Source: Roseovarius indicus
GTDB taxonomy: Bacteria; Pseudomonadota; Alphaproteobacteria; Rhodobacterales; Rhodobacteraceae
Assembly (NCBI RefSeq): GCF_008728195.1
Contig: NZ_CP031598.1
Coordinates: forward strand, 4,774,001-4,838,000
Length of the DNA stretch: 64,000 nt
Direction: 5' to 3'
Below the pieces are notes generated by a model. The model made no database searches, was not told where the DNA came from, and saw only the letters and a program-made list of their open reading frames with translations. The translations under genes were made by a program, and so were the position numbers. Within the stretch, counting starts at the first letter, position 1. Each line of letters opens with the position of its first letter. This document shows positions 5,369-5,413 of the stretch, one piece after another.

Positions 5369-5413
5369 GCACCGACGCAATACCGACAAAATACCGACGT
5401 TATACCGACGTCG
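5369..5413. repeat. 4 x 11-bp direct repeat (ACCGAC units), copy 1
   Basis: ACCGAC occurs at 5371, 5382, 5393 and 5404, exactly 11 bp apart, mostly inside the unit ATACCGACGTT. A nearly identical array lies at 39388-39426. It is intergenic, about 100 bp upstream of fadH. Helical phasing suggests a cooperative protein-binding site; the function is unknown. Confidence 0.9.

Follow-up and report, generated by a model that had tools for sequence, protein, structure and literature searches.

What does a short array of ACCGAC words, repeated at exact 11-bp steps, do in a bacterial chromosome? The window analyzed here is a 64,000-nucleotide stretch of the Roseovarius indicus chromosome (C1:4774001-4838000), and it contains two such arrays. 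A sequence-only reading had described four ACCGAC cores in phase, a near-identical second copy, and an intergenic position for both. This description was confirmed. The steps are exactly 11 bp in both blocks, the blocks differ at 2 positions over 45 bases (5369-5413 versus 39386-39430), and both lie between genes. The features of the window are as follows.

5371..5409, + strand: array 1, starting at C1:4779371, with ACCGAC at 5371, 5382, 5393, and 5404 and spacers GCAAT, AAAAT, and GTTAT
5410..5418, + strand: short conserved 3' flank of array 1, GTCGCATTC, from the flank column composition of 79 arrays
5510..7537, + strand: NADH:flavin oxidoreductase gene with a pyridine nucleotide-disulphide domain, neighbor of array 1 (the fadH of the sequence-only reading; context only)
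39388..39426, + strand: array 2, starting at C1:4813388, with ACCGAC at 39388, 39399, 39410, and 39421 and spacers GTAAT, AAAAT, and GTTAT
39427..39435, + strand: short conserved 3' flank of array 2, GTTGCAGTC, from the same column composition of 79 arrays
39513..40094, - strand: DUF2064 gene, neighbor of array 2 (context only)
1..64000: GC skew negative across the whole window (mean, -0.134), meaning more C than G on the strand that carries ACCGAC in both arrays

The window contained four three-unit matches with three or fewer mismatches. The mean in 100 shuffles was 0.13, and the maximum was 1. The sequence-only reading had found no match to a familiar promoter, REP, or CRISPR form, and Rfam gave no match in the window at the gathering threshold. 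The 4001-7000 segment had a GC skew of -0.186 and the 38001-41000 segment one of -0.216, but the value at 1-3000 was -0.239. Array 1 had been described as upstream of fadH. This label is incidental, as arrays are found in every kind of gene context.

A 132-bp stretch by array 2 (39214-39340 and 39523-39654) has 81% identity to the 3' part of the DUF2064 gene. It is a partial duplication of that gene, adjoining the array.

A chromosome-wide family of arrays

The genome contains 6.17 Mb in 5 contigs, with 5,445,172 bp in C1 and 728 kb in the four smaller contigs. Three units match exactly at 169 places in it (101 forward, 68 reverse) and four units at 79 (48 forward, 31 reverse). The backwards pattern gave 0 matches at either length. 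The dispersed family that had been proposed is therefore present, and it is not limited to two copies. All 79 four-unit arrays are on C1 and none is on the other 728 kb (chance, 5e-5). Our array set was drawn from the sequence surrounding these 79 and three of the three-unit arrays. It contains at least 84 members, namely, 79 four-unit, 3 three-unit, and 2 two-unit arrays, and it covers 161 of the 169 three-unit matches. A profile scan of 2.32 Mb retrieved the same 84 arrays and nothing further above 12 bits. It retrieved no decayed copies (12 to 60 bits) in the 2.32 Mb.

Eighty-two of the 84 arrays are intergenic, in DNA that is 87.6% coding by our own gene calling. Relative to the array, the flanking genes are convergent in 29 cases, co-directional in 22 and 19, and divergent in 12. 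Spacing along C1 is indistinguishable from random (coefficient of variation, 0.91 versus a random mean of 0.98), with a mean gap of 65 kb.

The unit is the 7-bp word TACCGAC (the first one is usually CACCGAC). Units are separated by 4-bp spacers, and a four-unit array has 39 bases. The spacers are mostly of a few forms in preferred orders (GCGA, GCAA, GTAA, AAAA, GTTA, GTGA, GAAA, and GGAA). About half of the four-unit arrays are embedded in a larger element. TTAAC half-sites occur near 41 of the 79, in the left zone (-32 to -16) of 24 and the right zone (+21 to +38) of 39. By the same zone rule, TTAAC is present to the right of array 1 and on neither side of array 2. We take TTAACC to be a CtrA half-site. 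GANTC, a CcrM site according to the available text of PMC9836097, lies 2 to 5 nt past TTAACC in 24 of the 79 arrays. GTTGCGC is present within 100 bp upstream in 24 of the 79. The arrays are a chromosome-wide, phase-conserved, intergenic family of polar sites with about 80 copies.

Array direction and local GC skew

GC skew is normally taken to reflect the direction of replication, and it serves to locate origins, inversions, and assembly errors. On C1, array direction follows the local GC skew, segment by segment. Replichores were assigned from dnaA at C1:346 and a terminus assumed near 2.72 Mb; termini at 2.60 and 2.78 Mb gave nearly the same result. By this assignment, 63 of the 84 arrays point with the replichore and 21 are contrary (P = 5e-6). 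Contiguous maps contain islands of skew at arrays. Past the last array, the skew declines over about 100 kb to near zero within a 400-kb array-free stretch.

A regression over 1103 two-kb bins gave 0.032 for replichore, 0.004 for gene direction, and up to 0.118 for the array kernel. The R2 was 0.74 with arrays versus 0.35 for replichore and gene direction only. With permuted array directions, it was at most 0.47 and 0.48 (two sets of 200). At fourfold-degenerate sites, the array kernel was 0.335 versus 0.063 for replichore. The kernel was about 0.02 or less at codon positions 1 and 2 and about 0.1 in intergenic DNA, so the signal peaks where constraint is weakest. The array effect adds to the replication effect and does not merely redirect it. 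Array direction is coupled to local strand composition beyond replication or gene direction, and the polar arrays beat the replichore as a predictor of the sign and strength of local skew.

The skew domains are one-sided. At fourfold sites within 4 kb, the ACCGAC strand has more C than G at 82 of the 84 arrays, including 19 of the 21 contrary ones. The wrong sign is confined to two arrays, with starts at 1968153 and 5061167. At distances of 1 to 10 kb, the skew at 83 arrays was -0.347 on the 5' side versus -0.217 on the 3' side (P = 5e-7). At the 21 contrary arrays, it was -0.232 versus -0.015 (P = 2e-5). The 3' skew dies away within about 8 kb, and the 5' skew lasts 12 to 30 kb.

The profile of the contrary arrays was obtained after subtraction of the replichore and mean gene-strand terms. 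Going 3' from the array, the first kilobase had -0.38, the interval from +2 to +3 kb had -0.15, and the interval from +8 to +10 kb had 0.00. On the 5' side, it was -0.19 to -0.33 as far as about -12 kb and zero by -20 to -30 kb (beyond 10 kb, the values come mostly from two contiguous stretches and have larger errors). Random inversions should not be one-sided, so we do not regard the contrary arrays as simply lying in inverted segments. The arrays are polar and lie near one edge of local GC-skew domains. The sequence-only reading had suggested an iteron-like element or cooperative binding on one DNA face. A plasmid-type iteron or a plain cooperative operator is not expected to have this polarity or a GC-skew domain that matches it in sign, as nearly all of the arrays do.

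Some islands of skew have no recognizable array (C1 383-391, 399-411, and about 691 kb). Degenerate arrays were considered as their source, and none was found in 2.32 Mb. About 300 kb of C1 (about 1.48-1.78 Mb) has no arrays, near-zero skew, and a lower fourfold G+C (0.81). It is possibly accessory DNA.

Arrays and skew in relatives

Exact four-unit arrays were retrieved from 12 of 394 family genomes, R. indicus included. An order-level sample of 121 genomes, all from the same family, had three-unit arrays in 10, and arrays were found in 0 of 24 genomes from other families of the class. Within the genus, 32 of 60 genomes contain two-unit matches, with at least three matches in 27 and a single match in 5. 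The five single-match genomes are at the control level, since single backwards-pattern matches occur in 18 of the 60. Genera among the matches listed were Roseovarius, Salinihabitans, Pseudooceanicola, Sulfitobacter, Silicimonas, Boseongicola, Shimia, Sedimentitalea, and Pseudohalocynthiibacter; species among the matches listed were Salinihabitans flavidus, Shimia aestuarii, and Pseudooceanicola antarcticus. One Flavobacterium match was rejected as an unrelated repeat. Array occurrence is patchy within the family. The sequence-only reading had named loss of the 11-bp phase and absence from relatives as evidence against it; the phase is conserved and relatives do carry arrays.

Genomes G006, G012, G034, and G468 contain 39 to 47 two-unit matches. 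Exact three-unit matches number 1 in G006, 1 in G012, and none in G034. With these three genomes rich in two-unit matches and almost without three-unit ones, the number of units per array looks like a genome-wide trait.

The relatives yielded 94 loci (the Flavobacterium one included). Twelve share both flanks with an array site of R. indicus (genome G000), and 27 share at least one. The raw array-strand skew is below zero at 73 of 79 loci 5' of the array and at 66 of 81 loci 3' of it (one G000 locus and the Flavobacterium locus included). Fourfold-site counts were made in named genomes, with the G000 and Flavobacterium loci left out; 70 of the 78 loci with an estimate (79 examined) are negative, with a mean of -0.195. 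At the 65 loci with both sides, the skew was -0.226 on the 5' side versus -0.166 on the 3' side (P = 0.003). By themselves, these loci would also be compatible with replication orientation.

For a swap test, gene skew in 196 ortholog pairs from 58 loci was set against the array kernels of the own and the other genome. Genes of the relatives gave 0.55 ± 0.05 on their own kernel and 0.23 ± 0.05 on the G000 kernel. G000 genes gave 1.12 ± 0.06 on their own kernel and -0.07 ± 0.06 on that of the relative. In 39 pairs, the two arrays have opposite directions; the skew follows the genome's own array in 31 of the 39 for the relative and in 36 of the 39 for G000. Gene-specific codon choice is therefore not the whole story. 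Thirteen pairs have little G000 kernel. In these, the array of the relative tends to be followed by the relative (0.33 ± 0.15) and by G000 (0.56 ± 0.22), which counts against a purely own-array effect.

Genome G467 is array free. Its skew is weaker, and 67 of its orthologs correlate with the G000 kernel (r = 0.66, with 0.85 for G000 itself). Sixteen of the 67 are far from arrays and have nearly nil skew in G000 (-0.033), so the correlation is not only a core/accessory effect, in these small numbers. No replacement 11-bp motif was found in 400 kb of G467. A check for decayed arrays found a flank ortholog for 5 arrays, none with adjoining flanks on both sides that were near enough for a comparison. 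Either G467 has lost its arrays and its skew is relaxing or the landscape is partly older than the arrays. The weaker echo in G467 and the array-free skew islands argue against simple causation by arrays.

At the lpd site in the genus, 15 genomes have an array-like upstream region and 14 do not (no significant skew difference, P = 0.28). The lpd gene is C rich in most of the genomes compared, probably from codon bias. Many genus members have a second intergenic repeat (of the GGGGGAATTGGCCG...GGGGGCAGCGCCCCC type) upstream of lpd, either beside the array or by itself.

Candidate mechanism, rivals, and known systems

We tentatively favor a reading in which the arrays are candidate one-way DNA-exchange or repair sites that drive the skew; we consider it a real possibility, still short of probable. 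One protein would bind the units side by side on one face of the DNA, with one unit per helical turn. The 7+4 bp layout suggests a candidate tandem-binding protein. The site would fix the place and direction of a strand-asymmetric DNA transaction, most likely homologous exchange or repair. Single-stranded DNA of the ACCGAC strand whose 3' end lies close to the array would recombine toward the 5' side of the array. The C excess on the ACCGAC strand reaches the 5' side and fits DNA of this polarity. Chi-type resection and 3'-end-first uptake both produce single-stranded DNA of such geometry. Mismatch correction or repair synthesis would then slowly enrich C on the ACCGAC strand, as well as total G+C. 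C:C and C:T mismatches are poorly corrected.

The base spectrum was taken in classes of a kernel fitted on the same genome. At fourfold sites, array-strand genes (kernel, -0.6 to -0.3) have 0.688 C and 0.261 G, and genes on the opposite strand have 0.311 C and 0.611 G. The fourfold G+C is 0.95 in array-strand genes and 0.92 in those on the other strand versus 0.83 at near-zero kernel, as biased conversion would give. At twofold sites, C makes up 0.844 of C/T endings on the array strand versus 0.650 on the other strand, and G makes up 0.648 versus 0.849 of G/A endings.

The main rival is a polar mutagenic process without exchange. The array would start or load one-way synthesis, helicase action, or long exposure of single-stranded DNA in the 3' direction of the GTCGGT strand, with strand-biased mutation. 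It gives nearly as good an account, and we consider it somewhat unlikely. It draws on the same polarity data and on the confinement of the effect to weakly constrained sites. The array spectrum agrees in sign with the leading-strand effect and is about 2 to 4 times stronger for a kernel of 0.3. Because the signs coincide, conversion and mutation are not told apart by the spectrum alone. However, redirected ordinary forks would not exceed ordinary replication asymmetry, and the term for arrays is several times larger than that for replichore. Nor is higher G+C near arrays an obvious outcome of C deamination.

The arrays may instead be passengers. The skew would arise otherwise, and arrays would be gained or kept where their direction fits. 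The weaker echo in array-free G467, the skew islands without arrays, and the 13 low-kernel pairs that follow the array of the relative all point this way. The domain edge at the array and its one-sidedness do not, and opposite arrays pair with opposite skews (the 31 and 36 of 39 pairs above). We judge the passenger explanation improbable.

Still less probable are replication- or segregation-orienting sites of the KOPS/AIMS type, with contrary copies in inverted segments that keep their old skew. KOPS and AIMS are polar and mostly replichore oriented, as are the arrays (63 of 84). They are 8-bp words that mark replication direction, as described in the accessible part of PMC5993296, but a quarter of the arrays are contrary and have their own local skew. 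The one-sided domains of these contrary arrays are not expected from random inversions. The steady rise in abundance toward the terminus is also absent, with 28, 14, 19, and 23 arrays in four equal bins from origin to terminus.

Another reading, which we consider very doubtful, is that gene transfer agents (GTAs) begin to package chromosomal DNA at the arrays. One-way domains of tens of kilobases would fit packaging, and the GTA clusters of the family lie in high-GC-skew regions, according to the portion available of PMC9836097. The accessible text of a review (PMC11841831) describes GTA packaging in D. shibae as nonrandom, but it gives no known packaging site and reports symmetrical peaks.

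An ordinary operator, bound by a tandem-binding regulator of the OmpR/PhoB type that controls neighboring genes, is hardly credible. Pho-box and OmpR-type operators are tandem sites with 7-bp units, 4-bp spacers, and an 11-bp period, as in the arrays, and TTAAC half-sites lie near many of the four-unit arrays. These operators occur at particular promoters, whereas the arrays occupy about 80 loci in all gene contexts, and convergent contexts outnumber divergent ones. One conserved copy lies between two genes that we take to be bchY and bchZ. An operator also leaves tens of kilobases of skew unexplained.

Equally hard to credit are REP- or MITE-like mobile or miniature repeats that insert with a strand preference. 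Many copies are near-identical, and some species have an array at the lpd site while others lack it, but no decayed copies were present in 2.32 Mb, some array sites are shared with other species, and an insertion preference does not explain a one-sided skew. By inspection, the palindrome or terminal inverted repeats of REP and MITE elements are absent; the array unit is a direct repeat, and its flanks have no inverted copy. A gene resembling a REP-associated tyrosine transposase (C1:3875821-3876387), which we take to be a RAYT, lies 70 bp from one array. The RAYT query matched 28 of 60 genus genomes, both array bearing and array free, with no clear association between RAYT and array presence in the genus.

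By analogy, the geometry is like that of a very sparse Chi-type or uptake/packaging-start site, and we do not claim membership in those families. Chi sites (RecBCD/AddAB) are polar and act on one side over many kilobases, as the arrays appear to do, but the array effect is measured in composition and not in recombination. A Chi site is one short word, densely distributed. The arrays are 39-bp four-unit elements, with 84 in 5.4 Mb, or about one every 65 kb. Known DNA uptake sequences are dispersed and oriented and could mark exchange, as could the arrays; they have a length of about 10 bp and occur roughly once per kb, and the arrays are longer and about 65 kb apart. Plasmid and phage iterons are direct repeats with a period of about one helical turn and, like the arrays, would suit tandem binding, but they cluster at one origin, and the arrays are 84 sites over 5.4 Mb. 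CRISPR arrays have repeats of 20 to 50 bp and unique spacers, unlike 7-bp units with 4-bp spacers of few forms.

Koppenhofer et al. (2022; PMC9836097) described GC-skew peaks in the Rhodobacterales with a codon preference for G over C, higher G+C, and many core genes. These peaks share strong skew, higher G+C, and the bacterial order with the array domains. In the available part of that article, the cause given is, at least partly, codon selection, and no sequence element is named. The arrays are a sequence-level candidate cause of the peaks that is open to experiment. No prior description of the arrays was found in open-licence literature, a weak claim of absence, and the family, in which the direction of a polar chromosomal site predicts the strand composition around it, is apparently undescribed. 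It is quite possible, and only just short of probable in our judgment, that this is an undescribed bacterial system in which about 80 polar sites per chromosome start one-way exchange or synthesis and outweigh replication in setting local GC skew. Such a system would resemble in spirit the recombination hotspots of eukaryotes, where gene conversion is biased. The array results would also caution against the use of skew for inferring inversions in the Rhodobacterales. If the exchange reading is true, the arrays would be the equivalent in bacteria of targeted recombination hotspots.

Plasmid and phage records contained no array match. Viral contigs gave 45 matching stretches versus 7, 8, and 15 for three control patterns, and we treat these as a lead only. 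Twenty-seven of the 45 are in DNA with less than 40% G+C, have other spacers, and are in many cases near-identical to one another. Two of the 45 (L352 and L365) resemble Rhodobacterales arrays. Two of the 12 examined (L339 and L344) contain 11-bp-period ACCGAC repeats inside phage genes that resemble replication initiation genes (DnaD-like or other).
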